A stretch of DNA of 64,000 nt from Tepiditoga spiralis (GCF_014701195.1 NZ_AP018712.1:2002501-2066500); one strand, 5' to 3'; positions 18,597 to 56,385 are shown, counted from the first letter of the stretch. Program-made: numbers and translations. The notes: generated by a model from the sequence alone, not told the origin.

Positions 18597-18612
18597 TTTA
18601 TTTATTTAACTA

Positions 18613-18655: not shown

Positions 18656-18742
18656 ATGACTTTAAAAGACACATCAATAAATTTAAATATTGATATAAAA
18701 GAACTTTTGTTTGAAGAAGTTTATTTTGTAATCACCAATTGA
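18656..18742 (+). pseudogene. Remnant of a PIN-kinase gene (N-terminal 20 codons)
   Basis: The reading MTLKDTSINLNIDIKELLFE matches the start of the intact PIN-kinase protein at 30335 (MTLKEISINLNIDIKKLLFE), then diverges and stops after 28 codons. It keeps the upstream element and purine-rich ribosome site. It shows that a second PIN-kinase module once stood here. The rest of 18743-19036 has no supported gene; a weak 37-codon reading at 18747 lacks a ribosome site. Confidence 0.75.
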
Positions 18743-18910
18743 GAATATGAATTCTGCACAAACAAAGAATGAAATTTACCAAAAAGATGTAAAAATTGTA
18801 GAAATAACAAACAAATATTTAATAATTTTTTCTAAAAAAATAATTCATAAAAACATATAGATAATAATTAAATTAATAATTATAGAAATTTAAAAATATA
18901 TTTTTAAATA

Positions 18911-28208: not shown

Positions 28209-28970
28209 ATGAAAAATAGCATATTAGTTAGAACAGAAGATTTAATTAATAATCCAACACCAAGAATTCCAATATGTTTATGCTTAGATACAAGTGGTTC
28301 AATGGATGCACTTAGCGGAAATTTTAAACTAACAGGAAAAACTTGTTTTAAAGATGGGAAAGAATGGAATGTTGCAACAGGTGGAGTAACTAGACTTAGC
28401 AAACTTCAAGATGGATTAGAAATTTTTTATAATGCCATTAAAACAGATGAAATAGCATCAGCTTCTGCTGAAATTTGTATTGTTGAATTTAATGATAATG
28501 CAAATTGTATATTAGATTTCGCAAATATTAAAAGACAAAAAATTCCAAATTTAAAAACATCAGGAAATACAGCAATGGGCAAAGGAGTAAATTTAGCCTT
28601 AGATTTATTAGAAAAAAGAAAAGAAGAATATAGAGAAAAAGGTGTAGATTATTATCAACCATGGTTAGTATTAATGACAGATGGAGAACCAAATGGAAAT
28701 CCCAAAGAATTGTCAAGAGCAATTGAAAGAACAAGAAAAATGATTGAAAATAGAAAACTAACTATTTTTCCAATAGGTATAGGTGACGAAGCTGGAATGG
28801 AAACATTACAAAAGTTTTCTCCAAATAGGCAACCATTAAAATTAAAAGGTTTAAAATTTAAAGAATTTTTTACTTGGTTAAGCCAAAGCGTATCAAGAAC
28901 TTCACAATCAATGCCAGGAGAAAAAATACAATTGGATATCGAAAAAATCAAAAGTTGGGGAGAATTATAA
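28209..28970 (+). CDS. vWA-domain protein (TerY-like) with insertion, copy 1
   Basis: 253 residues. von Willebrand A fold with a MIDAS metal site: LCLDTSGSMD (DxSxS), Thr in SGNTAMGKGV and Asp in LMTDGEPNG. Compared with the vWA at 32050 it has an extra ~30-residue hairpin (residues ~35-65, with GKTCFKDGKEW) after the first motif. TerY-like vWA proteins act with a kinase and phosphatase in TerY-P systems. GGGAGGAGG precedes ATG 28209. A close paralog lies at 43996. Role inferred from context. Confidence 0.85.
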   Translation: MKNSILVRTEDLINNPTPRIPICLCLDTSGSMDALSGNFKLTGKTCFKDGKEWNVATGGVTRLSKLQDGLEIFYNAIKTDEIASASAEICIVEFNDNANCILDFANIKRQKIPNLKTSGNTAMGKGVNLALDLLEKRKEEYREKGVDYYQPWLVLMTDGEPNGNPKELSRAIERTRKMIENRKLTIFPIGIGDEAGMETLQKFSPNRQPLKLKGLKFKEFFTWLSQSVSRTSQSMPGEKIQLDIEKIKSWGEL

Positions 28971-30334: not shown

Positions 30335-32038
30335 ATGACTTTAAAAGAAATATCAATAAATTTAAATATTGATATAAAAAAACTTTTATTTGAATTAAAT
30401 AAAATCGGAATATTTATTCTTAATCCAAATAAAGAATTGAGTAATTCTCAAATAACACTAATAAAAAAATATATAAGTAAAGATAAAAATGAAAAAAAAC
30501 AAAATAAAGAGTTAAAAAAAATTGTTAAAAGACATAAAATTTTTATAGATACATCTAGCATTTTAGATAAAAATTTTGAAATATTTTGTAATCAAATAGA
30601 ACCATTATTATTAAAGTATAAAAAAAAAATAATAATAATTCCTAAAGTTTTTAATGAACTGTACAATTATTTAGAAAATGAACAATTAAAAGAAAAAGTT
30701 AAAAAAAATATAAAAATTTTATCAAAATTAAGAGAAAAAAATTTAATAGAAATAAGAGTAGAAACAAGAAATAATTTTGTTGATAATGTTTTTTTTATAC
30801 AATTTTCAAAATATAGATTAAAACATAAATTATTATTGATTACACAAGATAAAAAGCTTTCAAATAGCATAATCAAATTGAACAAAATCAAATCACCAAA
30901 AGAAAATAATGTCAGAGTTATGAAAATATCAAATAATGGAATTTTATATGATTTCAAAGAATTAAATAACTATCAATCAAATTCTAATAAAAAAAAATCA
31001 AACGAAACTAAAATAAAAATTACTAATGTACCAAATGACATTATTCCAATAAAAAATATACCAAGTATTGGTAGTAATGTTTACACAGATTTTGGAGAAA
31101 AAATCAAATTAATAAGTAAAATCTCTTCTGGTGGTGAAGGAACTGTATATAAAACTAATACAAATTATGTTTGTAAAATATATAAAAAAGAAAAAATTAC
31201 AATACGAAAATTTGAAAAATTAAAACTTATGATAAAAAAATCTTTAAATTATAATGGCATATGTTGGCCACATAAAATTATTTTTAATAATTCAGGAGAA
31301 TTTGTAGGCTATTTAATGCCTATGGCATTTGGAAAAGAATTAAAAAGAATGTATTTTATTGAACCAAAGAAAAAATTAATTAACTGGAAAAAAATTGATG
31401 CTGTTAATCTTGCAATTACCATTTTAGAAAAAATTAATTATTTACACAGTAATAATATAATTTTAGGAGATATAAATCCTATGAATATTTTAGTAGTAAA
31501 TCCTAAAGAAGTTTATTTTGTTGATACAGATAGTTATCAAATTGAAAGATTCCCTTGTCCTGTTGGAACAATAGAATTTACACCTCCAGAACTCCAAGGA
31601 AAAAATTTTGGGAATATTATTAGAACTTTAAAAAACGAATATTTTGCTATAGCTATATTATTATTTATGCTTATGCTTCCGGGAAAACATCCATATTCAC
31701 AAAAAGGGGGTGAAGATATTAAAAAAAACATAAAAAATATGAATTTTCCTTATACTTTTATGAAACAAACAAATAAAGTAGCTCCAGAAGGTATGTGGGT
31801 TTTTATTTGGAGTCATTTAACTTATGCATTAAAAGAAAAATTTTTTAATATTTTTAATAAAAATGGCAAATATAGTCATTTAAAAACAAGATTGAATACA
31901 AAACAATGGTTAAATGAAATGGAAAAATATAAACTTTTTTTAGAAAATAATTCAAAAATCGTAGATAAAATGTCTTTAAATATGTTCCCTACCAGATACA
32001 AAAAATTAGGTAATTTAATTTATAAAAATAATAAATAG
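30335..32038 (+). CDS. IF2N-like / PIN / protein kinase fusion
   Basis: 567 residues. Residues 1-45 (MTLKEISINLNIDIKKLLFE, then LNKIGIFI) resemble the small helical domain at the N terminus of initiation factor IF2. Residues ~75-200 form a PIN-like nuclease: FIDTSSILD, VFNELYNYLE and LITQDKKLS. Residues ~240-540 are a Ser/Thr kinase-like domain: SSGGEGTVY loop, Lys in YVCKIYKK, catalytic ILGDINPMNILV and metal Asp in YFVDTDSYQ. AGGGAA precedes ATG 30335. Followed by the vWA (12 nt) and PP2C genes, it is the kinase of a TerY-P-like triad, with nuclease and RNA-binding-like parts added. The kinase part keeps the residues needed for activity. Confidence 0.75.
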   Translation: MTLKEISINLNIDIKKLLFELNKIGIFILNPNKELSNSQITLIKKYISKDKNEKKQNKELKKIVKRHKIFIDTSSILDKNFEIFCNQIEPLLLKYKKKIIIIPKVFNELYNYLENEQLKEKVKKNIKILSKLREKNLIEIRVETRNNFVDNVFFIQFSKYRLKHKLLLITQDKKLSNSIIKLNKIKSPKENNVRVMKISNNGILYDFKELNNYQSNSNKKKSNETKIKITNVPNDIIPIKNIPSIGSNVYTDFGEKIKLISKISSGGEGTVYKTNTNYVCKIYKKEKITIRKFEKLKLMIKKSLNYNGICWPHKIIFNNSGEFVGYLMPMAFGKELKRMYFIEPKKKLINWKKIDAVNLAITILEKINYLHSNNIILGDINPMNILVVNPKEVYFVDTDSYQIERFPCPVGTIEFTPPELQGKNFGNIIRTLKNEYFAIAILLFMLMLPGKHPYSQKGGEDIKKNIKNMNFPYTFMKQTNKVAPEGMWVFIWSHLTYALKEKFFNIFNKNGKYSHLKTRLNTKQWLNEMEKYKLFLENNSKIVDKMSLNMFPTRYKKLGNLIYKNNK

Positions 32039-32049
32039 GAGGCGATATC

Positions 32050-32733
32050 ATGAATAAAAATTTATTGTTAAAAGCAGAAGAACTTGTAGATAATCCTAAT
32101 TCAAGAATACCTATTTGTTTGTGTTTAGATGTAAGTTCTTCAATGGAAGGAGAACCAATAAATGAATTAAACGAAGGAATAAAATTATTTTATAGAAACA
32201 TATATGATGATGAAATAGCAAGGGCAGCAGCAGAATTAGCAATTGTAACCTTTGGTGGAGAAGCATATTTTGAAAAAGATTTTTCAAGCATTGATATACA
32301 AAAAATACCGATTTTAAAAACATTTGGAAACACACCATTAGGAGAAGGAGTAAATTTAGCACTAAATTTATTAGAAAAAAGAAAAGAAAAATATAAAGAA
32401 AAAGGTATAGATTACTATCAACCTTGGTTAGTATTAATGACAGATGGAATGCCAAATGGAGATGAAAACGAATTAAAAAAAGCAATAAAAAGAACACAAA
32501 ATATGGTTAATAATAAAAAATTAACAATTTTTCCAATAGCAATAGGACAATATGCAGACATAAAAGTTTTAAATTCATTATCTCCAAAAAGAGTTCCATT
32601 AAAATTAAAAGATTTAAACTTCAAAAAATTCTTTGAGTGGTTGAGTAAAAGTGTAAGCATAACCTCACAATCAAATCCAGGTGATAAAATAAAACTTGAT
32701 GTAGAAGAAATAAAAGGTTGGGCAGAATTATAA
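32050..32733 (+). CDS. TerY-like vWA protein
   Basis: 227 residues, the standard TerY length. MIDAS motifs: LCLDVSSSMEG, FGNTPLGEGV and LMTDGMPNGD. Lacks the insertion seen in the two other vWA proteins of the window. GGAGG precedes the ATG. Between kinase and phosphatase it completes the TerY-P arrangement, which has been reported as an antiphage set (Gao and colleagues, 2020). Confidence 0.88.
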   Translation: MNKNLLLKAEELVDNPNSRIPICLCLDVSSSMEGEPINELNEGIKLFYRNIYDDEIARAAAELAIVTFGGEAYFEKDFSSIDIQKIPILKTFGNTPLGEGVNLALNLLEKRKEKYKEKGIDYYQPWLVLMTDGMPNGDENELKKAIKRTQNMVNNKKLTIFPIAIGQYADIKVLNSLSPKRVPLKLKDLNFKKFFEWLSKSVSITSQSNPGDKIKLDVEEIKGWAEL

Positions 32734-32778
32734 AATAATAAAAAAAATAAATATTTTTTATATATGGAGGCGAAAAAA

Positions 32779-33783
32779 ATGTGGAAAACAATTACTTATG
32801 AAGTACAAGGAAGATCTCATAAAACGAAAGATATACCATGTCAAGATAAAACATATTCAAATTATGAAAATAATGTACATGTAATAGCATTAGCAGATGG
32901 TGCAGGTTCAGCAAAATTTTCCCATTATGGAGCAGAAATCGCTGTAAAAACAATATCTAATTTTTTAAACAATAATTTTGATAATTTAATAAGAAACAAT
33001 GATGCTTTAAAAGTAAAAATAGAACTAATAAATACTTTAAACAAAAAGTTAAAAGAAAAGGCACAGGAACTATCTTGTGAATTAAAAAGCTTAGCTTCAA
33101 CTCTTTTAGTTACTGCAATAAAAGAAGACCATTTTATAATTATACATTTAGGTGATGGAACAATAGGAGTAATAAAAAATAATAAATTAATGGTTGTTTC
33201 AACTCCAGCAAACGGAGAATATATAAACAGTACAATATTTACAACAACTAAAAATTCTTTTAAATATATAAAACTTTTCAAAGGTAAAACAAAGGATATA
33301 TCTGGTTTCATTTTAATGTCTGATGGAACAGCAAATAGTTTTTATAGTAATAAAAAAAAAGAATTATCAAATGCAACAAAAAAAATAATTAATTGGAGCG
33401 TATTATTGCCTAAAAATAATATGAAACAATTGATAGAAGAAACTTTTAATAATTTAATAATAAACAACACTTATGATGATTGCAGTGTTGCAATAATTAC
33501 AAATGAAAAACATAAATCTAATATTTATAATACTTTTCAAATTCATGAAAAAAAAGAATTTTATGATATAAAAACTAAAGATCCTAAAATTTATTTAAAA
33601 AAAATAAAAGCAAATGAAAATTTACTAAAAGAATTATATAAAAAACAAATAAATATTTTAGAATTAGCAAAAAAATTCCACATAAAAAAAAGATACTTAA
33701 AAAAGAAATTAAATAAATTTTCAAATCTTGGACTCATCAAAAAAGAAAATAAAAAATATAAATTACAAATACAAATAAAATAA
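32779..33783 (+). CDS. PP2C-family protein phosphatase with C-terminal winged helix
   Basis: 334 residues. PP2C metal-binding aspartates are seen in ALADGAGSAKFSHYGAE, HLGDGTIGV, LMSDGTANSF and YDDCSVAII. The last ~60 residues (QINILELAKKFHIKKRYLKK, then LGLIKKENKKYKLQ) look like a winged helix, an uncommon addition. GGAGGCG precedes ATG 32779. It would reverse phosphorylation by the kinase encoded two genes upstream. Confidence 0.87.
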   Translation: MWKTITYEVQGRSHKTKDIPCQDKTYSNYENNVHVIALADGAGSAKFSHYGAEIAVKTISNFLNNNFDNLIRNNDALKVKIELINTLNKKLKEKAQELSCELKSLASTLLVTAIKEDHFIIIHLGDGTIGVIKNNKLMVVSTPANGEYINSTIFTTTKNSFKYIKLFKGKTKDISGFILMSDGTANSFYSNKKKELSNATKKIINWSVLLPKNNMKQLIEETFNNLIINNTYDDCSVAIITNEKHKSNIYNTFQIHEKKEFYDIKTKDPKIYLKKIKANENLLKELYKKQINILELAKKFHIKKRYLKKKLNKFSNLGLIKKENKKYKLQIQIK

Positions 33784-34075: not shown

Positions 34076-34125
34076 TAACAAAAAAGCCTTTGGATTTTTT
34101 GTTTGAAACTTTTTTATGTACAAAG

Positions 34126-34932
34126 ATGAGGAGTGATACTATCTTATATAGCATTGTGATTGAATTAAAAGCAAAAAATAATGGAATAATAAGTACTTAT
34201 TCTGGACAAAAAATTCATGGACTTTTTTTCAAACTATTAAAAGAAGCAAATAAAGAATTAGCTGACACAATACACAATAATACATTGAGTAAAGCATTTA
34301 CTATTTCAACATTTTTAAATGAAAAAATAGGAACACCAATAGAATTTAGGAAAGGGAAAAAATACTATTTTAGAGTAACTTTTTTATCAGATGAAGTTTA
34401 TGAAATTTTCTTAACTAAATTATATAAAAACAGATTATTAAGAAAAAGCATTAAAGTTGGAGATATTTACTTTTTAATAAATAGAATATTTTTTAATGAA
34501 TCTGAAAACGAATGGGCAAATACATTTAATATAGAAAATATAATAGCAAAAGATAATTTTAAAAGTGTAATAAAATTAAAATTCATTACACCAACCTTAT
34601 TTAAAATTGGAGATAAATATTTAAAAGAACCTGATGTAGAAAAAATATTTAATGGATTATTAAAAAAATTTAATTTATACAATGAAATTAAAATAGATGA
34701 CTCTATAAAAAATAAATTTTTAGATATAAAAATAAAAAATAAAAATATAAAACCAAAAAAAGTATACTTAACAAAATTTTTTATAGAAGGATTTATTGGT
34801 GAAGTTGAATTTGAAATACCAAAAGAAATAGTAAAAATTGTAAACATACTTTTAGAATTTTCATTTTATTCTGGTATAGGTTATAAAACAACTATGGGAT
34901 TTGGACAAGTAAAAATATTAAAGGAAGGATAA
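34126..34932 (+). CDS. cas6: CRISPR repeat endoribonuclease Cas6
   Basis: About 268 residues. A Cas6-type RAMP: LYSIVIELKAKNNGII, an N-terminal ferredoxin-like fold with GQKIHGLFFKLLKEAN holding a conserved His, and the C-terminal G-rich loop SGIGYKTTMGFGQVKI. It should cut the repeat at the foot of its hairpin to make crRNAs from all four arrays. The start is unsure: ATG 34126 overlaps its own ribosome-like AGGAG, a TTG at 34090 extends it, and no ATG is ideally spaced. It stands 2 nt before the CAPP gene, so expression is coupled to the adaptation genes. Confidence 0.85.
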   Translation: MRSDTILYSIVIELKAKNNGIISTYSGQKIHGLFFKLLKEANKELADTIHNNTLSKAFTISTFLNEKIGTPIEFRKGKKYYFRVTFLSDEVYEIFLTKLYKNRLLRKSIKVGDIYFLINRIFFNESENEWANTFNIENIIAKDNFKSVIKLKFITPTLFKIGDKYLKEPDVEKIFNGLLKKFNLYNEIKIDDSIKNKFLDIKIKNKNIKPKKVYLTKFFIEGFIGEVEFEIPKEIVKIVNILLEFSFYSGIGYKTTMGFGQVKILKEG

Positions 34933-34934
34933 AA

Positions 34935-36566
34935 ATGGGATGGCTGAAAAAGGCTGTAAAATATGAAGAAGAATTTAAATTTAAAGAAGCTTTAAACATA
35001 TATAAAAAGAAAGAAAAAAAATTAAAAATAGAAGACGGATCACTCATTAGATATGGAACCCTTTTATATGAATTTCAAATGTATAATGACGCTAAAAGGA
35101 TCTATGAAAAAATAATAAAATTAGCTCCAAATAAATTAGAACATAAAGAAATGTTAGCAAAAATATATGAAAACTTAAATAAAACAACAAAAGCTGTAGA
35201 ATTATACAAAGAATTAAATATAAAAGATAAAGTTCAAACATTAATAGACAAAGAAAATTTTAATAATCCTAATCTTAAAATCATTAAAAAGTTTATAGAA
35301 CTTTTTAATGGAAGAGAAGATGTTATATCTTTTCAATATGAAAATGGTTATAGACCAATTAGAAGACCATTAAATACAAAAGATGTTTATAATCATTTTA
35401 AAGGAAAGCGAACACTTGGGATATATCAATTAAAAAAAGATAATACAATAAAATTTGCTGCATATGATATTGATATAAAAAAAGCTTACCATAAAACTTC
35501 AGAAGAAAACAAAAACAATGAAAAATTAAAAGATATAACTCATCAATTAATAGATAAATTAAATAATTTAAATTTTAATACATACGTTGAATGGAGTGGG
35601 AATAAAGGATATCATATATGGATATTTTTTGAAACTCCTGTTCAAAGTTATAAAGTAAAATGCGTAATGGAATACCTATTAAACCAAATACAAACACAAG
35701 AAGAAATAGGTGTGGAAATATTTCCAAAACAATCAAATATTGGAGAAGGACTCGGAAATCTTATAAAAGTTCCATTAGGTTTACATCAAAAAACAAAAAA
35801 TAAATGTTTATTTGTAAATAAAGACACATTAACTCCAATTAAAAATCAAATAAAATATCTAATGAATATAGAGTATACAAACTATGACATTATAAAAGAA
35901 CTTTATAATGAATGTTCTTCAGATTTTGTATATAAAACAATTGTTAAAAGTAAAACTAAAAAAGCAAATAAAAACACTATAAAAAATGTTATAAGAAAAG
36001 AAATAAACAATAATACTCAAAATGATGATATAAAAAAAATAATCACAAATTGTACAATAATAAAACAAATTATAAAAAAAATAGAAAATGAAGCTTATAT
36101 TACAGAAGAAGAAGAAAAAATATTTGTTGAATCATTAATAAAAATCAAAGATAGTAAAAATTTTATAGAAGAAATGTTAAAAAAAACAATAAATTTCTCT
36201 GCAATACGACTTGATCTACTCATGAAAAAAGAAAAAAATATTCCAATAACTTGTGAAGAAATAAAGAAAACTATTCTAAATAAAGAACTTCATTTAAATC
36301 TTGAAAAATGCAATTGTAAATTCTTAACAACCTATAACTCTCCTTATTCAATAATCTATGATATAGATAAATTATTTTTAGAAAAAGTTGAAATAAATGA
36401 TATAGTGAAAAAAATAATGGAAAAAAACTCTCAAAAATATGAAATAGAAAAAGAAATAAAAAGCTTAAAGAAAATGATACTAAAAATTATGGGAGAAAAA
36501 ACAGAAATAAATTTTGATCTAGGAATAATAAAAAAAGATGGGAATGACGTAAACATAATAATTTAA
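34935..36566 (+). CDS. CRISPR-associated primase-polymerase (CAPP): TPR + AEP
   Basis: 543 residues. Residues 1-110 are TPR-like helices (YGTLLYEFQMYNDAKRIYEK). The archaeo-eukaryotic primase core has the metal-binding D178/D180 in FAAYDIDIKKAY, the SxH-type motif EWSGNKGYHIW and a third acidic motif near GVEIFPKQ. The C-terminal third is helical, with CNCK. Published CAPPs of Marinitoga have this layout, next to cas1-cas2 and Argonaute, and can start DNA synthesis de novo; a role in spacer acquisition has been proposed. AAGGAGG precedes the ATG. The residue numbering agrees within one with the Marinitoga sp. enzyme as I recall it. Confidence 0.88.
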   Translation: MGWLKKAVKYEEEFKFKEALNIYKKKEKKLKIEDGSLIRYGTLLYEFQMYNDAKRIYEKIIKLAPNKLEHKEMLAKIYENLNKTTKAVELYKELNIKDKVQTLIDKENFNNPNLKIIKKFIELFNGREDVISFQYENGYRPIRRPLNTKDVYNHFKGKRTLGIYQLKKDNTIKFAAYDIDIKKAYHKTSEENKNNEKLKDITHQLIDKLNNLNFNTYVEWSGNKGYHIWIFFETPVQSYKVKCVMEYLLNQIQTQEEIGVEIFPKQSNIGEGLGNLIKVPLGLHQKTKNKCLFVNKDTLTPIKNQIKYLMNIEYTNYDIIKELYNECSSDFVYKTIVKSKTKKANKNTIKNVIRKEINNNTQNDDIKKIITNCTIIKQIIKKIENEAYITEEEEKIFVESLIKIKDSKNFIEEMLKKTINFSAIRLDLLMKKEKNIPITCEEIKKTILNKELHLNLEKCNCKFLTTYNSPYSIIYDIDKLFLEKVEINDIVKKIMEKNSQKYEIEKEIKSLKKMILKIMGEKTEINFDLGIIKKDGNDVNIII

Positions 36567-36576
36567 GGTGAAAAAT

Positions 36577-37581
36577 ATGATTATTTATATAATTGAACAA
36601 GGAGCAATACTTTCAAAAAAACAAGGAAAAATAATTGTTAGTAAAAATGGAGAAAAAATAAATGAAATACCAATAAAAAAAATAGATAAAATTAATATTA
36701 TGGGAAATATAAACATTACAACTCCAGCAATCAATTATTTTTTAGACAACAATATTGAAGTTATTTTCATGACAAGATATGGAAGATATAGAGGAAAACT
36801 ATACAAAGAAGAATACAAAAATGTTTTATTAAGATTAAAACAATATGAAAAATCATTTGATGAAACATTTAAACTAAAGATGGCAAAATCGATAGTTAAA
36901 GGAAAATTAAAAAATTATTATGACTTTTTATTAAAAAAACAAAAGTACTTACTAAAAGGGGAAATAAGTCAAGAAATAGCTACTATACGAAGTATTATAG
37001 AAAGAACAACAAATGCAAAAAATATAGACAGTGTTAGAGGATACGAGGGAATGGCTTCAAAAGCTTATTTTAATGCCTTCAAAAATTTAATAAAAAATAA
37101 AAATTTTAAATTTGAAAAAAGAATATCACATCCACCAAAAGATGAAATAAACTCAATATTATCATTTGGATACTCTTTTTTATATAATGAATTATTAGCA
37201 GCAATAAATATTGTTGGACTTGACCCTTATTTTGGAAACTTACATACAGTTGCTATATCAAAAAAATCATTACTCTTTGATATGGTTGAAGAATTTAGAA
37301 ATATTATAATAGATGATTTTGTATTAAAATTAATAAATAGAAACGAAATAAAAATAAATCACTTTTCAAAACAAAAAGATATAATACACTTTACAGAAGA
37401 TGGCATAAAGATATTTATTTCAAAATATGAAAATTTACTAGCCTCAAAAATGAAATACCACTTAGACGAAGAAGAAAATTATATAAGAATAATATTTGAA
37501 AAACAAATGAGACATTACGCAAGAGTAATTTTGGGCGATGAAGAAGAATACATACCTTTTTTTAGAAAGGAGATAGATTAA
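36577..37581 (+). CDS. cas1: CRISPR adaptation integrase Cas1
   Basis: 334 residues. The metal-binding Glu, His and Asp/Glu are in VRGYEGMASKAYF, LHTVAISKKSLLFDMVEEFR. N-terminal beta-rich part IYIIEQGAILSKKQGK is typical. It integrates new spacers together with Cas2. ATG 36577 is used, with AAGGTG 7 nt upstream; this GTG could be misread as a start. No reverse transcriptase or Cas6 is fused to it, unlike other Marinitoga type III Cas1 proteins. It is 1 nt from cas2. Confidence 0.95.
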   Translation: MIIYIIEQGAILSKKQGKIIVSKNGEKINEIPIKKIDKINIMGNINITTPAINYFLDNNIEVIFMTRYGRYRGKLYKEEYKNVLLRLKQYEKSFDETFKLKMAKSIVKGKLKNYYDFLLKKQKYLLKGEISQEIATIRSIIERTTNAKNIDSVRGYEGMASKAYFNAFKNLIKNKNFKFEKRISHPPKDEINSILSFGYSFLYNELLAAINIVGLDPYFGNLHTVAISKKSLLFDMVEEFRNIIIDDFVLKLINRNEIKINHFSKQKDIIHFTEDGIKIFISKYENLLASKMKYHLDEEENYIRIIFEKQMRHYARVILGDEEEYIPFFRKEID

Positions 37582-37582
37582 T

Positions 37583-37861
37583 ATGTTTTATGTAGTAAGT
37601 TATGATATAACAGATAATAAAAAAAGAAATAAAATAATTAAATATCTTGAAAGTTATGGTGTTAGAGTTCAATATAGTGTTTTTGAAGCTGAATTAAACG
37701 AAACACAACTCAATTCTTTAAAAAGAAATTTGAAAAAATCAATAAATTTAAATGAAGACACAATAAGAATATATCCATTATGTAGTGAATGTAGAAAAAA
37801 AATAGAAACAATAGGAATAGACAAAGGAAGTTATTATAAAAAAGACTTTTTAATAGTGTAG
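37583..37861 (+). CDS. cas2: CRISPR adaptation protein Cas2
   Basis: 92 residues of the Cas2 ferredoxin-like fold: FYVVSYDITDNKKRNKI contains the conserved Asp, then VRVQYSVFEAEL and the C-terminal RIYPLCSECRKK. It forms the structural centre of the Cas1-Cas2 integrase. AAGGAG precedes the ATG and 11 nt separate it from ago. Confidence 0.95.
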   Translation: MFYVVSYDITDNKKRNKIIKYLESYGVRVQYSVFEAELNETQLNSLKRNLKKSINLNEDTIRIYPLCSECRKKIETIGIDKGSYYKKDFLIV

Positions 37862-37872
37862 GAGGTAATAAA

Positions 37873-39804
37873 ATGACACTTAATCTATTTAAAATAATAA
37901 TTCCAAAAGAAGTAAAAAGAATCTATTTTTATAAAAAAGAAATAAGCCCTGAAATATTTGCAAAAAATCTAAAAAGAGTTAACAATATAAAATTTACATA
38001 CTCCAATGATTTAATTTGGGTGGAACTCCCAAACATTAAATTAGAAATAAAACCAAAAGAAGTTATGCAATACAAAATAGAAAAAGAAGAAGTACTAACA
38101 GTACAAAAAGACGAAAAATTATTTTTAAAAATGATATATTCATATGTACAAAAATTATTCTTAGATAACGAATTTTATCATAAAAATGGGAATGAATATA
38201 TATCATTAAAAGATAAATTTGAATTAAAATCAAATAAAAATATTATGTGCCATAAAGCTTATAAAGTAAAAATATATAAAATTGATGATGAATATTATTT
38301 ATCTATAAATCCAAAATTTGTTTTTTTATCAAAATTAAATGCATTAGAATCACAAGAAAAGGGAGTTTATTTATTTAATACAAAATCAGGAAAAACTTTT
38401 CCATATATATCCAGCATTGATAATAAATTAACAATAGAATTAAAAAATGGTGATTTAAGAATAGTAAATTACCCTGAAAATTATTATTTTAATTATTCTT
38501 CAAAAGAAGCTGAATTTTTAGGTTTTTCAAAAGAAATTTATACAATTAACAAAGAAAAATTTAATATAGAACTAAAAGAAATATCATCAAAATTAAATTT
38601 TTTAAAAGATATTCTTGATATTAAAAATAAATATGAAATACCTTGGGATAACCGAAAATATTTAGATATAAACTATATATTCAAAAATGGGACTTCTAAA
38701 AATGCAAAAGATATGTTTAAATACTCCTTTTATAAAAACGAAAAAGATATAAAAATTTTATTTTTCTTTAATTCTGAAAAACAATTTTTTAGAGCGCGAA
38801 ATATATTAAAAGAACTATTTTCTAATAAAAATTCAATATTTTATAATTCTATAAAACAACTTGGATTCAATACAATAAGCTATGTAAAGAATAAGGAAAC
38901 TAATAAATCAATATTTTTCTATGATGAAGAAACATATGAAATAAAAGATAAAAGTTTTATAGAAAACTTAGGAATTGAAGATAATTATATAGGAATTACA
39001 TTTTTGGATAACTTCTTAGGAAATATAGAACTATTAATGAATAAAATGCCAAAAAATATAATATTTCAACCAGTTTTAATGAAAAATATAAATAGTATGA
39101 AACCATTTATAATAAAAAGTTTTGTATATAAACTTGCAAAATTTTTACCAGGAAATACTCCTTTCATAATTAATAATTTAAAAGAATATAAAGAAGATTT
39201 ATTTATAGGATTAGATATGAGTCATGATAACATATCAAAAAAAACACATTTTAGTATAACTGCAGTTGAAAATAATGGAAATATACTATATTTAAATAGA
39301 ATAAAAGAATTACAATTAAATGAAAAAATAAAGTTAGACCTTTTTGAAAAAGAATATATAAATATAATAAATAAATATGAAACTAAACATAAAAAACTTC
39401 CCAAAAGAATATTTTTATATAGAGATGGAATATATTTAGAGAATATTGAAAGAATAAAAAATATTGTTGAATATAAAGAAATTAAAGGCACATTTATAGA
39501 AGTAAATAAAAATTCAAATATAAACTCTACATATGATTTAAAAGATAATATAATAAAAATTTCTAATGAAATTTATGTTTACTTTCCAAAAACAATGCAC
39601 AAACAAAAAGGAATAGAATTAAAAATTATATATAATAATGTTAAAATAGAAAATGAAAAAATAGCTTTTCAAGGATTTATGCTCTCTAAACTTTACTATT
39701 CAACACCATATTCAAATATAAAACTTCCCTATCCAATACATATAACAAACAAAGTAGCTTTAAATGATTTAGAATGGAAACTTTATATACCTTACTTTGA
39801 ATAA
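37873..39804 (+). CDS. ago: CRISPR-associated Argonaute (MpAgo type)
   Basis: 643 residues, colinear over its whole length with the Marinitoga piezophila Argonaute. The PIWI catalytic set is complete: D448 (IGLDMSHD), E484 (LQLNEKIKL), D518 (LYRDGIY), N626 (HITNKVAL). Family knowledge: MpAgo takes 5'-hydroxyl guide RNA and cuts target DNA. The C terminus ends DLEWKLYIPYFE as in that protein. GGAGG lies before the ATG. As last gene of cas6-CAPP-cas1-cas2-ago it is probably co-expressed with spacer acquisition, and array 3 follows at once. Whether it uses crRNA guides in the cell is not shown by sequence. Confidence 0.95.
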   Translation: MTLNLFKIIIPKEVKRIYFYKKEISPEIFAKNLKRVNNIKFTYSNDLIWVELPNIKLEIKPKEVMQYKIEKEEVLTVQKDEKLFLKMIYSYVQKLFLDNEFYHKNGNEYISLKDKFELKSNKNIMCHKAYKVKIYKIDDEYYLSINPKFVFLSKLNALESQEKGVYLFNTKSGKTFPYISSIDNKLTIELKNGDLRIVNYPENYYFNYSSKEAEFLGFSKEIYTINKEKFNIELKEISSKLNFLKDILDIKNKYEIPWDNRKYLDINYIFKNGTSKNAKDMFKYSFYKNEKDIKILFFFNSEKQFFRARNILKELFSNKNSIFYNSIKQLGFNTISYVKNKETNKSIFFYDEETYEIKDKSFIENLGIEDNYIGITFLDNFLGNIELLMNKMPKNIIFQPVLMKNINSMKPFIIKSFVYKLAKFLPGNTPFIINNLKEYKEDLFIGLDMSHDNISKKTHFSITAVENNGNILYLNRIKELQLNEKIKLDLFEKEYINIINKYETKHKKLPKRIFLYRDGIYLENIERIKNIVEYKEIKGTFIEVNKNSNINSTYDLKDNIIKISNEIYVYFPKTMHKQKGIELKIIYNNVKIENEKIAFQGFMLSKLYYSTPYSNIKLPYPIHITNKVALNDLEWKLYIPYFE

Positions 39805-43995: not shown

Positions 43996-44757
43996 ATGGG
44001 GAATAATCTATTAATTAGAACAAAAGATTTAATTAATAATCCAACACCAAGAATTCCAATATGTTTATGTTTAGATACAAGTGGATCAATGGATGCAGTT
44101 AGTGGAAATTTCAAACTAACAGGAGAAACTTGTTTTGAAGATGGGAAAAACTGGAACATAGTAACAGGTGGAGTAACTAGACTTAGCAAACTTCAAGATG
44201 GATTAAAAATTTTTTATAATGCCATTAAAGCAGATGAAATCGCATCAGCTTCTGCTGAAATTTGTATCGTTGAATTTAACAATAATGCAAATTGTATATT
44301 AGATTTTGCAAATATCAAAAGGCAAAAAATCCCAAATTTAAAAGCATTTGGAAACACAGCAATGGGAAAAGGGGTAAATTTAGCATTAGATTTATTAGAA
44401 AAAAGAAAAAAAGAATATAAAGAAAAAGGTGTAGATTATTATCAACCATGGTTAGTATTAATGACAGATGGCGAACCAAATGGAAATACTAAAGAATTAT
44501 CAAAAGCAATTGAAAGAACAAGAAAAATGATTGAAAATAAAAAACTAACTATTTTTCCAATAGGTATAGGTGACGAAGCAGGAATGGAAACATTACAAAA
44601 ATTTTCACCAAATAGAAAACCATTGAAATTAAAAGATTTAAAATTTCAAGAATTTTTTACTTGGTTAAGCCAAAGTGTGTCAAGAACTTCACAATCATCA
44701 CCAGGAGAAAAAATACAATTAGATATCGAAGAAATAAAAAGTTGGGGAGAATTATAA
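43996..44757 (+). CDS. vWA-domain protein (TerY-like) with insertion, copy 2
   Basis: 253 residues, about 90% like the protein at 28209, with the same MIDAS motifs (LCLDTSGSMD, FGNTAMGKGV, LMTDGEPNG) and the same Cys-containing insertion (GETCFEDGKNW). Ribosome site AAGGAAG. No kinase or phosphatase lies next to it here, so it may act with the triad at 30335-33783 or with the neighbouring peptides. Confidence 0.85.
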   Translation: MGNNLLIRTKDLINNPTPRIPICLCLDTSGSMDAVSGNFKLTGETCFEDGKNWNIVTGGVTRLSKLQDGLKIFYNAIKADEIASASAEICIVEFNNNANCILDFANIKRQKIPNLKAFGNTAMGKGVNLALDLLEKRKKEYKEKGVDYYQPWLVLMTDGEPNGNTKELSKAIERTRKMIENKKLTIFPIGIGDEAGMETLQKFSPNRKPLKLKDLKFQEFFTWLSQSVSRTSQSSPGEKIQLDIEEIKSWGEL

Positions 44758-48944: not shown

Positions 48945-50114
48945 ATGCAACTATTAAAATTAACTCTTGAAACAACATCTCCCATGTTCAATGGTAGAGA
49001 TAATAACTTTGTTTTATTACCTCAAAGTATTAGAGGAGTTATGAGATATTGGTTTAGAGCATGTATTCCAAGAACTATTAATATAGGAAGAAACTATGAA
49101 AATTTAAAAAAAATTGAAGAGGATTTATTTGGTTCAACTGAAAGAAAATCTTCATTTGATGTTATAGTTGAATCTAATTATCAACAATCAATATCTAAAT
49201 CAATTGCAGGTAATGTTTTTTCTGATTTTAAATATGGAATCTATGGTGCTGAATCAAAAAGATATTTAAAAGAAGGTACAAAGATAAACTTAACTTTTGT
49301 AATAAAAAGAAATATTGATGATTTAGATTATCTTTTATATTATTTAATGTATTTAATATCAAATATTGGTGGAATAGGAATGAAGAGTAGAAATGGATTT
49401 GGAAGTTTTTTAATAATAAAAAAAGATGAAAAATATCAAAAACCAAGTGGATTTGTTGATACTTTAAAAAAAATTGATGTTATAATGCAAAAATATGCAG
49501 AAAAATTAAACTTACCATTGGGAGGTACTATATTCAATGAAATACCCGACTTCCCAACTTTAACAAAATCAAATTATAAAGGATACACAAGTAAACAACG
49601 TTTTGTGAATATTCAACAACTATTTAAATTCCTATACAAAGCAGATATAGAAAATCCAGGTGCCTATATTCATTTAAAAAAGAAATATTTAAGAGGCGCT
49701 CATACTAAAAGAGATTCATTTGTAAGGTCTATAAAAGCTATTGAAAGATCAAGACCAGAAAGAATTGAATATAAGCAAGCTTTACTTGGTTTACCCATAA
49801 ATTATAGAATAATGAGTGGACACCATGGAAATATAAGAGGTGGAAATTACACATTAAGTGGAGATGAAAGAAAAGCCTCTCCTGTTTATATTTCAGTTCA
49901 CAGAATATTAGATGAGAAAAAAACGATAAAATATATATATAAAATATTCATAATAAAAAGTAAAATGAGTTCAAATAACAATCTGAAGTTTAAGAAAAAG
50001 GGAGAAAAAATAACTTTAAATGGATATTTTAACTTTGATTTTAAAGATATAGAAAAAAATCTTGTAAAAGCTAATCTTATAAAGGAGGTAAAAAAAATTG
50101 AGCACAAAAAATGA
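48945..50114 (+). CDS. cmr1: Type III-B effector subunit Cmr1
   Basis: 389 residues with two RAMP repeats. First: LTLETTSPMFNGRDN and PQSIRGVMRYWFRA, then GGIGMKSRNGFGSF as glycine-rich loop; second near GAYIHLKKKYLRG. Cmr1 caps the 3' end of the Cmr backbone. GGGGG site before the ATG. It overlaps cas10 by 17 nt. Confidence 0.92.
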   Translation: MQLLKLTLETTSPMFNGRDNNFVLLPQSIRGVMRYWFRACIPRTINIGRNYENLKKIEEDLFGSTERKSSFDVIVESNYQQSISKSIAGNVFSDFKYGIYGAESKRYLKEGTKINLTFVIKRNIDDLDYLLYYLMYLISNIGGIGMKSRNGFGSFLIIKKDEKYQKPSGFVDTLKKIDVIMQKYAEKLNLPLGGTIFNEIPDFPTLTKSNYKGYTSKQRFVNIQQLFKFLYKADIENPGAYIHLKKKYLRGAHTKRDSFVRSIKAIERSRPERIEYKQALLGLPINYRIMSGHHGNIRGGNYTLSGDERKASPVYISVHRILDEKKTIKYIYKIFIIKSKMSSNNNLKFKKKGEKITLNGYFNFDFKDIEKNLVKANLIKEVKKIEHKK

Positions 50115-52470
50115 TTTTTGGATAAAAAAAATAAATGCAATTATGTATACTCCAATTGAAAAAGTTTTTATTAATACAGATCATGAAGAGTTACAAAAAA
50201 ATAGATTAAAAAGAATAAATATCGAATACATAAAAAGCAAATCAGAAAGTCTTGCAAATACTGCAGATAAAGTTTTATTACCAAACAAAAATGAAATTAA
50301 AGTTGATTTTAACAATGATGAACTATTATATATTCATCCATTATCTGGAAATAAATTAAAAAATGAATACAAAGAATTTGTAAAAAATATTAATGATAAA
50401 AAAGAATGGGAAATATATTTAAATGATTTATCTAAAATGAATTTAAAAAGTAATGAATTGTATCATAAACTTTGGTGGGATTTACCAAATGTATTGAAAT
50501 ACTCTTATATGTATCCAGCAGATACAAAGATACCAGATAATTCTATAATAGATCATTTAGATACAACAGCTGCAATGAGTAATTCTGAAAATATATCAAT
50601 ATTAATGTTATCAATAGGTCCTGTTCAAGAATTTATTGCAGCAGGAAGAAAAATAATTGATTTAAAAACTGGTAGTTATTTATTGTCTTATTTAACTTAT
50701 AAAGGCATAAAGTATATAGGAGAAAATTATGGATATGATTCAATAATTTTTCCATCTATGCGAGAAAACTATTTTTTATCAAAAGATCATAATTTTGAAC
50801 TTTCAAAAGAAGTTGATCCAAGTATTGCTTCATTGCCAAATGTTTTTACAGCAATACTTCCAACAAATGATATTGAAAAAATAGTAAAAGAAGTCGAAAA
50901 TGAAATAAAAAATGAAATGAAAAAAATAAGTAATTATATAAAAGAAAATATAATAAAATTTGGATATAATGAAAAAAAGCGAGAAATGAATGAAAAAATA
51001 AAGTTAAAAAATTGGAATGAACTTTGGGATAAACAAGTAGAACAATTTCCAGTAATTATAGCTGTTCATCAAGATATTTCATCAAGCAATATAATAGATG
51101 AACATGTTGATTATACAAATGAAAATATAGCAAAAGAAGTTGAAAATGCTTTCAAAAATGTTATAAATACTAAAGAAATAAATAAAACAACTTTTTTCGG
51201 ATTTGCTTCAGAATTAATTGGAATAAAATCAGCTATAAGAAAAGCAACAAGAAACTTTATTCAATTAAAAGAAGAGTTTGAAGAAACTGGTGATGATATA
51301 TCGGCAAATAATAAAGCATTAGTATATTATAAATTTATAGACGAAGATAAAAATATAAAAACTGAAAAATTATCTGCATTAAGTACTATAAAAAGATATT
51401 TTTATAGATATTTAGAAGAAAAAACCATATATAAAAATGCTTCAAGAAAAATAAGAAAAGTTGAAAGTATAGAAGAAATAACTAAGGAATATAATATGGC
51501 TATACTCATGATGGATGGAGATAAAATGGGAGAATGGATTTCTGGAAGAAAAGAAGAAATTCCAAACTTTTTAGATAGAATGCATCCAAAGGTACAAAAA
51601 GAACTTGAAAAAATAGATAAAAATTATTATGAATTTTTAAAAAATACAAAGTATGTAATACCTTCTTATCAAAGAACTGTATCAAGAACATTAAATAATT
51701 TTACAAAGTTTGTTTCTAAAATAGTATCAAAATACAATGGATATTTAATTTATGCCGGTGGTGATGATGTTTTAGCAATATTTCCATCAAATACAGTATT
51801 GCAAGCAGCAAATGATTTAAGAAAAGTATATTCAGGATCAAGTTTAAATGAAAAAATAACCATAAAAAATAAAGAATACACCTTTAAAGATGGATGGGCA
51901 TTTGAAAATGGAATACCAGTATACAATATGATGGGAGAAAATGCAACTATGAGTGCTGGAATATTGATTGCAAATCCAAAGTACAATTTAAAATTAGCCT
52001 TAGATGAAGCAAGAAAACTTGAAAAAATAGCAAAAAATAATGGTAGAAATTCATTTGCTTTAGGAAGCGTAAGAGGAACAGGAAAGTTTTCATATACTGT
52101 GTCAAAGTGGGAAGATAAAAAAGATATACTTAAAAGAGTAATAAATTTTTTTGAAACCTATTCAAAAGAAGAAAATAAGAGATCTATAAAAAGATTATCT
52201 TCAAAATTAAAAAATGAATATATTTCACTATCTAAAGATAAAGACATACAAGTATTAAGCACTGAAGAATATATAAATTATGTAGTTCCATTTGCTTTAA
52301 AGAAAAGAATGGAGTTAAAAGACACAACAATAAAAAATATAAAAGAAATATTAAATGATTTTAATGAATTAATAAAAAAAGAAGGTGGAAACTTCATAGA
52401 AATATTAAATATTTTTGATGAAGTAGAACATGCATTAAAAAAGAGAGACAAACGAGGTGAAAAAAATTGA
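50098..52470 (+). CDS. cas10: Type III-B Cas10/Cmr2 with intact GGDD and degenerate HD
   Basis: 790 residues from TTG 50098, 10 nt after AAGGAGG. Cmr2 signatures: DHLDTTAAMS, SIGPVQEFIAAGRK and the Palm/cyclase motif YAGGDDVLAIF near residue 553, with DGDKMGEWISG in the preceding Palm. So cyclic oligoadenylate synthesis from ATP on target binding is expected. At the N terminus, where LHDPP-type HD residues normally stand, the sequence is INAIMYTPIEKVF, and the chain contains no cysteine, so the usual zinc finger is missing too. The HD DNase is probably lost. Overlaps cmr3 by 4 nt. Confidence 0.93.
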   Translation: MSTKNDFWIKKINAIMYTPIEKVFINTDHEELQKNRLKRINIEYIKSKSESLANTADKVLLPNKNEIKVDFNNDELLYIHPLSGNKLKNEYKEFVKNINDKKEWEIYLNDLSKMNLKSNELYHKLWWDLPNVLKYSYMYPADTKIPDNSIIDHLDTTAAMSNSENISILMLSIGPVQEFIAAGRKIIDLKTGSYLLSYLTYKGIKYIGENYGYDSIIFPSMRENYFLSKDHNFELSKEVDPSIASLPNVFTAILPTNDIEKIVKEVENEIKNEMKKISNYIKENIIKFGYNEKKREMNEKIKLKNWNELWDKQVEQFPVIIAVHQDISSSNIIDEHVDYTNENIAKEVENAFKNVINTKEINKTTFFGFASELIGIKSAIRKATRNFIQLKEEFEETGDDISANNKALVYYKFIDEDKNIKTEKLSALSTIKRYFYRYLEEKTIYKNASRKIRKVESIEEITKEYNMAILMMDGDKMGEWISGRKEEIPNFLDRMHPKVQKELEKIDKNYYEFLKNTKYVIPSYQRTVSRTLNNFTKFVSKIVSKYNGYLIYAGGDDVLAIFPSNTVLQAANDLRKVYSGSSLNEKITIKNKEYTFKDGWAFENGIPVYNMMGENATMSAGILIANPKYNLKLALDEARKLEKIAKNNGRNSFALGSVRGTGKFSYTVSKWEDKKDILKRVINFFETYSKEENKRSIKRLSSKLKNEYISLSKDKDIQVLSTEEYINYVVPFALKKRMELKDTTIKNIKEILNDFNELIKKEGGNFIEILNIFDEVEHALKKRDKRGEKN

Positions 52471-53447
52471 AAAAAAGATTATTATTAGTTAAGCCTCTTG
52501 ACTGGTTGGCATTTAGAACATCAAGAACCTTTTCTTCTAGTGGTGATACTCAATTTCCAAATACAAAAACATTTTATGGTGCAATATATGCAGAATTATA
52601 TAGAAAAAACATATTAACTCCAAAAGAAATAAAAGACAAAATAAAGATGAAAAAATTAGATTTAACAGGGCCATTTTTATTTGAAAAAAATGATGAAATA
52701 AAAATATTATTTAGAACACCATCAATATTAAAGTATAATGAAGATACTAAAGAAACTTTAATGGGTTATATTGATGAAAAAATAAAATATGAAGTTGATG
52801 GAAAGGAATTAAATGGAATAAGATATAAAAGTATGAAAAATATAAAAGAATTAGAAAATTATTACATAACTTTAAAAGAGTTAGAAAAGATAAAAAATGG
52901 GGAATTAATTGAAAACAAAAAACCAATTGAATTACCTTATCGAATTGAAAGAAAAGTTGGAATAGAATTAGAAACCGGAAAAAGAAAAACAAAAAAGGGA
53001 ATGTTATACTCTTTGAGCTATTATAGATTTAAAGAAAATTCTGGATTTTGTTTTTTTATAGAAAATGATGAAGAAGAAATATTAAAAGATATTAAAACAA
53101 TACACCTTGGAACCAAAGGAAAAATAGCAGAATTAGAAATAATAGAAATAGAAACTAATCTCTTTAATAAAGTAGAAACAACACAAAAAATGGCAATATT
53201 ATTAACACCAGCATATTTTGAAAAAGGAGTAATGCCAAAAGAAAATAAAAATTTAATAGGAATATCAAACTACAAACCAGAAACTATTGGATATTGGGAT
53301 AGAGAAACAAATAAACCATCAGAACTTTTTAAAGTAGTGCCAAGTGGAAGCACTTATATTTTTAAAGAAGAAATACCAAAATACTTAACAGATGATTATG
53401 ATCATTATGGTTTTGGAAAATATATCGAAATAAAAGGGGGCAATTAA
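52467..53447 (+). CDS. cmr3: Type III-B effector subunit Cmr3
   Basis: 326 residues from TTG 52467. Cmr3 pattern: LVKPLDWLAFRTSRTF at the N terminus, FPNTKTFYGAIYAEL, GPFLFEKNDEI and the C-terminal PSGSTYIFKE with HYGFGKYIEI. It binds the 5' handle side of crRNA next to Cas10. GAGGTG precedes the TTG. Confidence 0.9.
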   Translation: MKKRLLLVKPLDWLAFRTSRTFSSSGDTQFPNTKTFYGAIYAELYRKNILTPKEIKDKIKMKKLDLTGPFLFEKNDEIKILFRTPSILKYNEDTKETLMGYIDEKIKYEVDGKELNGIRYKSMKNIKELENYYITLKELEKIKNGELIENKKPIELPYRIERKVGIELETGKRKTKKGMLYSLSYYRFKENSGFCFFIENDEEEILKDIKTIHLGTKGKIAELEIIEIETNLFNKVETTQKMAILLTPAYFEKGVMPKENKNLIGISNYKPETIGYWDRETNKPSELFKVVPSGSTYIFKEEIPKYLTDDYDHYGFGKYIEIKGGN

Positions 53448-53448
53448 A

Positions 53449-54270
53449 TTGAAAGGAAAAGTAGCATTTTTATATTCAGTAACTCAATTACATGCAGGTA
53501 AAGGATTTGATTCAGGAGTTGTAGATTTACCAATACAAAGAGAAGAAGCAACAGGATTTCCAATTGTTTCTGGAATAAAAGGAGCAATAAGAAATGAAAT
53601 AAAATGGGGAAGTGACGAAAAAGATATCTTTGGAGCAATGCCAGATAATAAAAATGAAGATTTAGCAGGAACTATAGCCTTTTCAGAAGCAAAAATATTC
53701 TTATTTCCATTAAGAAGTATAAGTCATGGATTTGTTTGGGTTACATGCCCTATGGTATTATCAAGACTAAAAACAGCATTTAAATTAACAAATAATAATA
53801 AAATAGAAGAAAAAATTTCAACAGTATTAAAAAATTTCAAAAACGAAGAATTATCAACATTTAACTCATCACAAGTAAATATAGAAGAATTTTTAGTAAC
53901 ACCAAAATATTCTAAAGAATTAAAAGAATTTTTGGAAGAATTAAAAGAAATAACTCCAGATGAATATTTATCAGATAAATTAATAAATACAACAGTTCTT
54001 TTAAGCGATAAAGATTTTATGTTTTTTGTAAAAAACTCAACAGAAGTTATGGCAAGAATAAAAATAAACAAAGAAAAAGGAGTAACCGAACAAGGTGCAC
54101 TTTGGTATGAAGAATACTTACCAAATGATACCGTTATGTACTTTATAGTAAAAGAAATATTAGAAAAAAACACTTTAGAAAAATTAGAAGAAAAATTAAA
54201 TGATAATTTTATAAACGTTGGTGGTAAAGCAACTATAGGAAAAGGTTTTGCATATATAAAAGTAATTTAA
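53449..54270 (+). CDS. cmr4: Type III-B backbone ribonuclease subunit Cmr4
   Basis: 273 residues from TTG 53449. It forms the repeated backbone that cuts target RNA at 6-nt steps. The catalytic Asp is present as D26 in GVVDLPIQREEATGFPIV, matching Pyrococcus furiosus Cmr4. Glycine-rich loop VGGKATIGKGFAYIKV at the C terminus; FPLRSISHGFVWVTCP is another family motif. One nt separates it from cmr3. Confidence 0.94.
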   Translation: MKGKVAFLYSVTQLHAGKGFDSGVVDLPIQREEATGFPIVSGIKGAIRNEIKWGSDEKDIFGAMPDNKNEDLAGTIAFSEAKIFLFPLRSISHGFVWVTCPMVLSRLKTAFKLTNNNKIEEKISTVLKNFKNEELSTFNSSQVNIEEFLVTPKYSKELKEFLEELKEITPDEYLSDKLINTTVLLSDKDFMFFVKNSTEVMARIKINKEKGVTEQGALWYEEYLPNDTVMYFIVKEILEKNTLEKLEEKLNDNFINVGGKATIGKGFAYIKVI

Positions 54271-54282
54271 GGGGGATATAAA

Positions 54283-54660
54283 ATGATAAAAACAGATTTT
54301 TCTATACAAAAGTGTGCAAAAGAAAGAATAATAATGAGAAAAGATAAAAGTTATGCTTCAACATACAGATCTTTGATAAAAGGATTAGGTTCTCAAATAA
54401 TACAAAATGGACTTTATGGAACATTGGTATTTTTAGATGCAAAAAATAAAGAACATCACAAAGCCGTATCTGAAGATATAATATACTTTTTAAAAGAATC
54501 AAATATTTACACAACAAATGATCATATTTATGATTTTTTAGAAAAAGAAAACAACTTAATGTTAGCACAAGATAAAGTTTTAGAATTTGTTGGATGGTAT
54601 AGAAGATTTGCTGATATATTTATACGAAATGATAAAAATACAGGGAGTGATAACTCTTGA
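54283..54660 (+). CDS. cmr5: Type III-B small subunit Cmr5
   Basis: 125 residues, all helical as usual for Cmr5. SYASTYRSLIKGLGSQIIQN and VLEFVGWYRRFADIFI match the family. It lines the inner face of the effector filament. It overlaps cmr6 by 4 nt. Confidence 0.9.
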   Translation: MIKTDFSIQKCAKERIIMRKDKSYASTYRSLIKGLGSQIIQNGLYGTLVFLDAKNKEHHKAVSEDIIYFLKESNIYTTNDHIYDFLEKENNLMLAQDKVLEFVGWYRRFADIFIRNDKNTGSDNS

Positions 54661-55634
54661 AATATTTTAATCAAGAAACAAAAATAATAAAAAATCCAAG
54701 TTTGTACTATGATAAAAAAGTGTACAACATGAAAAATTATATTGAAAAAGAATCAGAAGAATTAGAAAAAATAATTAGAGAAATTAACCCTGGTAGAGAT
54801 GAATTTGATTTATACGAACACTCTTCAAGAATTAATAGAAGCAGAAAACATAAAACATTTCTAAAAATATCCTCATTTCCAAATATAAGAGATAGAAAAA
54901 ATTTTAGAAGAGAAAAAAATAAATTTACTAAAGAACAAAAATTTACTTTAGAACTATTAAAAGATGCAGAAAAAGAAAGATTATCTAAAAAATCTTTAGA
55001 AATAACACGAAAAACATATAAAAAAGTATTAGAAGAATATAATTTAAATAAATTCGATTTATCAAAACCATTAAATTCATTAAATATAGTAAGAGAAAGA
55101 TTTATATATTCATTAATAAAAAATGGAAAAGAAGTAGTATCAATAAAGAAAAAATTACAAACTCCAATGCTTATTGGAATAGGTATTCCATCAATAGATG
55201 AAATAGGATTTTACTGGAATAGAAATTATGGGATTCCAACCATACCCGGAAGTACATTTAAAGGTGCATTTAGTACTTATTTTAAAGATTTAGAAATGAA
55301 TGAAATAAAAGATGAAATATTTGGAACACAAGAAAGTTCTGGAAAAGTAATATTTTTAGAATGTATACCAACAGATAAAATAGAATTAATAAAAGAAATA
55401 CAAACACCACATTTTGGAAAGTATTATACAGAAAATAAAGCTCCAAATGATATCTATAATCCAATACCATTATCTTATATGAGTGTTAATTCAGGTACAG
55501 AATTTAGATTTGATATAATAATAGAAAGTTCAAACGAAAAATTAAAAGAAATCCTCAACGAACACTTGGAACTATTTTTAAAATACTATGGTATTGGTTC
55601 AAAAACAAGTATGGGTTATGGTAGATTCAAGTAA
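54657..55634 (+). CDS. cmr6: Type III-B effector subunit Cmr6
   Basis: 325 residues from TTG 54657. RAMP motifs: LQTPMLIGIGIPS, PTIPGSTFKGAFSTYFK, TPHFGKYYTENKAPND and the C-terminal GIGSKTSMGYGRFK. The first ~150 residues are helical and charged, an extension seen in many Cmr6 proteins. Last gene of the operon, ending at a terminator. Confidence 0.92.
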   Translation: MKYFNQETKIIKNPSLYYDKKVYNMKNYIEKESEELEKIIREINPGRDEFDLYEHSSRINRSRKHKTFLKISSFPNIRDRKNFRREKNKFTKEQKFTLELLKDAEKERLSKKSLEITRKTYKKVLEEYNLNKFDLSKPLNSLNIVRERFIYSLIKNGKEVVSIKKKLQTPMLIGIGIPSIDEIGFYWNRNYGIPTIPGSTFKGAFSTYFKDLEMNEIKDEIFGTQESSGKVIFLECIPTDKIELIKEIQTPHFGKYYTENKAPNDIYNPIPLSYMSVNSGTEFRFDIIIESSNEKLKEILNEHLELFLKYYGIGSKTSMGYGRFK

Positions 55635-56373: not shown

Positions 56374-56385
56374 GGTGGTGAAAAT

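Follow-up and report, generated by a model that had tools for sequence, protein, structure and literature searches.

A TerY-P variant in Tepiditoga spiralis whose kinase carries a PIN nuclease domain: a candidate phospho-switched RNase

The TerY-P triad, a set of adjacent genes for a kinase, a TerY-type vWA protein and a PP2C phosphatase, was reportedly described by Anantharaman et al. in 2012 and reportedly shown to act in defense by Gao et al. in 2020. To our knowledge, how such triads stop phage has not been established: they comprise a kinase and a phosphatase, and no evident weapon. That they protect against phage is documented in published assays (PMC7699616, PMC10889362). The locus described here raises the question of whether, in one branch of this system, the weapon is built into the kinase. 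It occurs within a 64,000-nucleotide stretch (termed here the window; NZ_AP018712.1:2002501-2066500) of the 2.5-Mb genome of Tepiditoga spiralis, a heat-loving bacterium that, judging by its relatives and by its Argonaute and primase-polymerase matches, probably belongs to the Marinitoga group (Thermotogota). Here an earlier note, made from the sequence by itself, had pointed to a kinase, a TerY-like vWA and a PP2C at positions 30335-33783 and had proposed that the kinase is fused to a PIN nuclease. The triad is indeed three adjacent ORFs on the same strand, and their Pfam domains agree with that description. That it is a TerY-P variant with such a fusion (termed here a PIN-kinase) is close to certain; the explanation as a whole--that it is a horizontally acquired variant whose kinase carries its own PIN endoribonuclease and acts as a phospho-switched RNase--is assigned a probability of roughly one half. 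A conserved TerY-P branch with a nuclease in the kinase polypeptide names a candidate effector, namely RNA cleavage.

The first ORF (30335..32038, + strand) starts with an ATG, has a GGAGGG ribosome-binding site upstream and encodes 567 residues, comprising an IF2_N-like region (1-47), the PIN domain (approximately 66-206), a linker and a Ser/Thr kinase domain (approximately 250-535), such that about 240 residues precede the kinase. Pfam Pkinase matches residues 260-476 (E = 1.6e-11), and the catalytic positions are a GGEG loop (266-269), K281, D379, N384 and D397/D399; the protein stops at residue 567, and a C-terminal zinc finger is absent from it. After a gap of 11 nt there follows a TerY-like vWA of 227 residues (type 1; 32050..32733, + strand; Pfam VWA, E = 1.4e-9) with an intact MIDAS motif, DxSxS..T..D, and after a further 30 nt a 339-residue phosphatase (32764..33783, + strand; Pfam PP2C_2, E = 5.9e-46) that has the catalytic Asp motifs, which are invariant in 23 sequences. 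The three ORFs are compatible with a single operon. The phosphatase had been said to end in a winged helix, and its structural model (mean pLDDT 92.3) bears this out: residues 274-334 are arranged as helix-helix-helix-strand-strand, with block means above 90, and constitute a predicted winged helix that is kept in several relatives and missing in others.

The PIN domain is less readily detected. The window's own PIN region (residues 66-206) has no significant Pfam match, which counts against a phospho-switched RNase, and a PDB profile search using the PIN alignment found no PIN match by sequence; it was the comparison of folds that gave PIN. Four PIN motifs can be discerned by eye (FIDTSS, the E within PKVFNEL, NFVDNVF and LITQD), the acidic residues being D72, E108, D150 and D172, and Pfam PIN_4 is matched independently by 19 of the 21 homologous PIN regions. 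Residues 1-240, modeled with AlphaFold from an alignment of 21 related sequences, have a mean pLDDT of 86.7, with 10-residue blocks at about 84-98 across residues 61-200, except for 69 at 141-150. A Foldseek search of this model against the PDB returned one match with E < 0.001 and many more with a probability near 1; the top matches are PIN domains, namely SMG6, pre-ribosome/snoRNP chains of the Utp23/Utp24 kind, AF0591 and EST1A. Structure prediction for residues 75-200, chosen beforehand as the check on which the claimed nuclease could fall, thus gave a confident PIN fold, and the claim stands. In its fold and four acidic residues the domain resembles PIN_4 and the SMG6- and Utp24-type PIN endoribonucleases; unlike these, it is fused to a kinase within a phospho-signaling operon.

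The extreme N-terminus had been described as a small translation-factor-like (IF2N-like) domain, and cleavage of ribosomes had been proposed alongside that of RNA. Residues 1-47 do resemble IF2_N (E = 1.6e-4) and are modeled as a small, helical unit; the match, however, scores 21.8 bits, below the Pfam curated cut-off of 25.3 (the relative L036 scores 19.0), and only about 5 of 28 fused PIN-kinases have such a domain. Ribosome targeting by IF2N was dropped because the domain falls below the cut-off and is mostly missing in relatives, and the ribosomal part of the cleavage proposal is correspondingly weak. A different module, an S1 RNA-binding domain, precedes PIN in a Flavobacteriales relative. 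For the other part, phospho-regulated RNA cleavage, there is indirect support from this S1 domain, from the linkage of PIN and kinase across phyla and from the conservation of both active sites.

That conservation is extensive. D72 and E108 are each kept in 27 of the 28 fused proteins and D150 and D172 each in 26; all four acids, which rank with the best-conserved positions in the domain, are present together in 24. Among the four exceptions, L033 begins inside the domain, at a contig edge, and the long fusion of Megasphaera (L027) has lost one acid. The kinase Lys, catalytic Asp/Asn and metal-binding Asp are likewise kept in 27-28 of the 28. Because the active-site residues are conserved across these fusions, both enzymes look active, and the PIN is quite probably a working RNase. 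PIN folds are probably also used non-catalytically in this system: a gene combining an HTH with a PIN fold lies upstream of the PIN-kinase or kinase in L026 (4946-5935), with counterparts in L016, L025, L029, L031, L037, L053, L054 and L055, and the second and third acidic motifs of these partners are mostly lost (hence pseudo-PIN). Such an HTH-pseudoPIN, no gene for which is found in the window, might cap the active PIN and thereby be a possible inhibitory partner. The PIN of the PIN-kinase could, by the same token, be a targeting or RNA-binding module that directs the kinase to its site of action on RNA or ribosomes, with phosphorylation of translation or phage proteins as the output; the IF2N-like and S1 modules, which suggest an RNA or ribosome address, and the existence of PIN-less relatives fit such a role, but 24 of 28 fusions retain all four metal-binding acids, for which a module that only binds would have no use, and this role is judged unlikely. 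An active RNase remains the preferred reading of the PIN.

The domain order was sought in other genomes, as the earlier note had advised, and a scan of 85,000 species genomes with a four-sequence alignment as query yielded 36 loci, a lower bound in that the scan relies on two short peptide patterns. Among these loci, BLAST with alignment of the PIN motifs identified at least 24 with the fusion, in Bacillota, Fusobacteriota, Actinomycetota and others; a single-sequence query of the genome collection found nothing. Plasmid records searched by tblastn include close relatives in Fusobacterium vincentii (49.6% identity over 86%) and in Lysinibacillus (42.7%), as well as a relative in Paenarthrobacter, where the protein is annotated "PIN domain-containing". 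The fusion was absent from a scan of viral contigs, and phage records gave just weak kinase-domain matches. Operon and gene order are conserved: PIN-kinase, vWA, (second vWA) and PP2C follow one another in 22 of the 24 fused loci, the other two ending with the contig. PIN-less TerY-P loci from the same searches (L018, L020, L021, L056) are instead ordered vWA, PP2C, kinase; gene order thus also marks two branches. In a maximum-likelihood kinase tree, the PIN kinases share a single supported group, poorly resolved internally, to which most PIN-less kinases, those of the vWA-PP2C-kinase loci among them, do not belong, and a single origin is possible; the donor lineage was also sought in the tree, where the placement of the window kinase carries no starred support. 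Two Synergistota loci encode PIN and kinase as separate adjacent genes, which implies that the partnership survives without fusion. In three Treponema loci kinase, vWA and PP2C are present and no PIN was found; hence the triad can work without a PIN, a point counted against a phospho-switched RNase.

These loci share with TerY-P the adjacency, on one strand, of a TerY-type vWA, a PP2C and a Ser/Thr kinase, and the kinase domains are related; they differ from it in the N-terminal PIN nuclease of the kinase and, often, in a second vWA. The kinases of known triads end in a zinc ribbon or OB-fold (PMC11090510), whereas the window kinase has neither, and it is for this reason that the triad is filed as a TerY-P variant rather than as a typical member. 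Long relatives do have a C-terminal treble-clef zinc finger, together with a region annotated CFI-box-CTERM. YegI-like kinases of E. coli and other species are 25-30% identical to the kinase domain over some 300 residues, but are not annotated with a PIN. Among PADLOC models, the kinase matches PD-T4-6 (5.8e-15), the vWA matches none, and no model named TerY-P matched the triad. No description of a PIN-kinase TerY-P was found in the open-access literature searched, related surveys included, and the triad would appear to be a branch, so far undescribed, of an anti-phage system already known. In L048 (1055-3931) a related kinase ends in a trypsin-like protease domain and begins with a degenerate PIN-like region, and is another possible effector swap.

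The fusion is thinly scattered: it occurs in 1 of 103 Thermotogota genomes, that of the window, and in 6 of 398 genomes sampled within the phylum to which a Peptostreptococcus relative belongs (that genome counted), and some copies are plasmid-borne. For these reasons the triad was most likely acquired horizontally. Some copies are split or decayed. A shift of frame at a C9 tract splits the PIN ORF from the kinase ORF in Campylobacter gastrosuis (L038 position 6515; L038 and L039 are identical duplicate loci) and looks like phase variation, as expected of a costly function; in a Helicobacter the frame is broken at an A8 run (L052 position 6856), which could be a sequencing error. A search for defense-island enrichment near the relatives showed it not to be a general feature, the neighbors being mostly ordinary genes, and this too is counted against a phospho-switched RNase. 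A phospho-regulator that controls mRNA decay in stress or housekeeping, and has no specific role in defense, would sit comfortably in such surroundings: most relatives adjoin metabolic or transport genes, two Bacilli have a DnaJ-like gene after the operon, Caryophanon has a GrpE-like gene upstream of it, and the original framing of TerY-P was as a stress system, according to a passage of PMC11090510 that cites Anantharaman 2012. Housekeeping is nonetheless hard to square with so patchy a distribution, with copies on plasmids and with others that are split or decayed, and this account carries little weight. Defense is likely on the grounds of family and location and, as the main role of the triad, is favored by a modest margin.

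How a phospho-switched RNase might operate in defense can be outlined as follows. In the resting cell, PP2C would keep the kinase polypeptide, and possibly the vWA, dephosphorylated and the PIN silent. A signal of infection or stress, perhaps sensed through the vWA proteins (which would assemble or sense) or through an N-terminal module for binding nucleic acid (an IF2N-like one in the window, S1 in a relative), would let the kinase phosphorylate itself or a partner; this would free the PIN to cut cellular or phage RNA, thereby halting growth or phage replication, after which PP2C would reset the switch. That the RNase is gated by phosphorylation is rated somewhat better than even; that phosphorylation switches it on, rather than off, and that RNA is its substrate are presumed in this outline. 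Cells with published TerY-P systems mostly survive infection (PMC10889362), so a toxic RNase is not demanded, which counts against an RNase effector.

Two systems offer instructive parallels. CoCoNuT types II and III-A likewise tie a TerY-P triad to predicted RNA targeting, but they have a separate HEPN RNase and a GTPase/helicase apparatus (PMC11090510), whereas the RNase of the present triad is part of the kinase polypeptide and no apparatus of that kind was seen. Ire1 and RNase L combine a kinase domain and an RNase in one polypeptide, and the RNase is controlled via the kinase part. Theirs is a KEN RNase rather than a PIN, there is no homology and no dedicated vWA or PP2C operon, and the analogy is functional only. 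It may be ventured, as a doubtful extension, that the PIN-kinase is a bacterial counterpart in logic to these proteins, set by a dedicated phosphatase and a vWA adaptor, restrained in many hosts by the dead-PIN HTH partner and joined in some to type III CRISPR, with phosphorylation switching on RNA destruction during infection.

The setting of the window triad invites a narrower interpretation. It sits between repeat arrays and directly upstream of genes for Cas6, a CRISPR-associated primase-polymerase (CAPP), Cas1 and Argonaute (34090..39804, + strand); the type III-B effector genes Cmr1, Cas10, Cmr3, Cmr4 and Cmr6 follow at 48945..55634 (+ strand), with a CARF protein near them (47700-48920). 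In Selenomonas (L030) the triad lies between two Csx1 genes inside a type III-D locus. Both neighborhoods are counted in favor of a phospho-switched RNase acting in defense, and they might suggest that the triad is an ancillary module dedicated to immunity by type III CRISPR or Argonaute; yet these are the only two of about 28 loci with a type III linkage, the triad is absent from two family members that have a CAPP gene, and the triad proteins matched no CARF or other cyclic-nucleotide (cyclic-oligoadenylate) sensor in Pfam or PADLOC, all of which makes such dedication improbable. The triad is best regarded as an independent cassette, one that now and then inserts into defense regions. Improbable as well is a mobile addiction module, in which the PIN would be the toxin and PP2C or HTH-pseudoPIN the restraint, serving to maintain the element rather than to counter phage: PIN domains are classic VapC toxins, an HTH-pseudoPIN lies upstream in several relatives and there are plasmid copies, but the window lacks that partner, and a kinase and vWA exceed what addiction needs.

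Returning to the phospho-switched RNase and its history in this genome, a second PIN-kinase was said to have once stood at 18656, and its remains are identifiable (18656..18810, + strand). The first 20 codons match the intact PIN-kinase at 85% (tblastn E = 4e-6); directly after them, in the same frame and beyond a deletion, comes the C-terminal zinc finger of long PIN-kinases, decayed by two in-frame stops. A profile HMM of the zinc-finger tail, built from relatives and run on the six-frame translated window, matches here with E = 9e-8 (next best 0.46), with no other match past the inclusion threshold, and nothing of the PIN or kinase core is left at 18656. The lost copy was thus of the long, zinc-finger type, the surviving one being of the short type. 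Since short and long PIN-kinases occur in tandem in Megasphaera and in G420, a genome of the phylum sample of the Peptostreptococcus relative, the window may once have carried such an arrangement.

Further members may have been displaced. A lone vWA of 253 residues (type 2; 28209..28970, + strand) and a copy 90% identical to it (43996..44757, + strand) have the insertion TGxTxxxDGxxWNxVTGG, which they share with the second vWA inside relatives' operons, and neither has a match in any of the family's 20 other genomes. Given both observations, these vWAs are most simply displaced members of the PIN-kinase system.

Several other features of the region merit description. A leader, AATGTCGAATAATAATTTAGAAA, occurs with few mismatches just upstream of many small genes, of the lone vWA cassettes and of DarT; within the window its copies are at 18612, 18910, 27592, 28029, 29053, 29352, 41611, 43820, 44760, 45576, 46027, 46630 and 55701. 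A genome-wide count allowing up to three mismatches gives 15 forward copies, as against 0-1 for a reversed control, and 14 of the 15 lie in the ~60 kb around the region. The leader often reads as a short peptide, MSNNNLE; it may serve these genes as a common regulatory leader or act as a site of cassette recombination. A DarT-like ADP-ribosyltransferase with a DarT1-associated NADAR antitoxin (55702-57072) comes immediately after the type III-B genes. Beyond it, a 1414-residue protein fuses RNA polymerase beta-like and beta-prime-like domains (57172-61416); an unknown gene comes next, together with one for a sigma-54-activator AAA+ protein (62212-63510). On the opposite strand, a protein of the CARF-CYTH-HD type (20212-22773; PADLOC E = 3.6e-213) is probably a type III ancillary effector. 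Finally, two closely similar AAA-ATPase-like/PD-(D/E)XK proteins (16745-18544 and 41968-43764) flank the region as part of direct repeats that are 88-95% identical.
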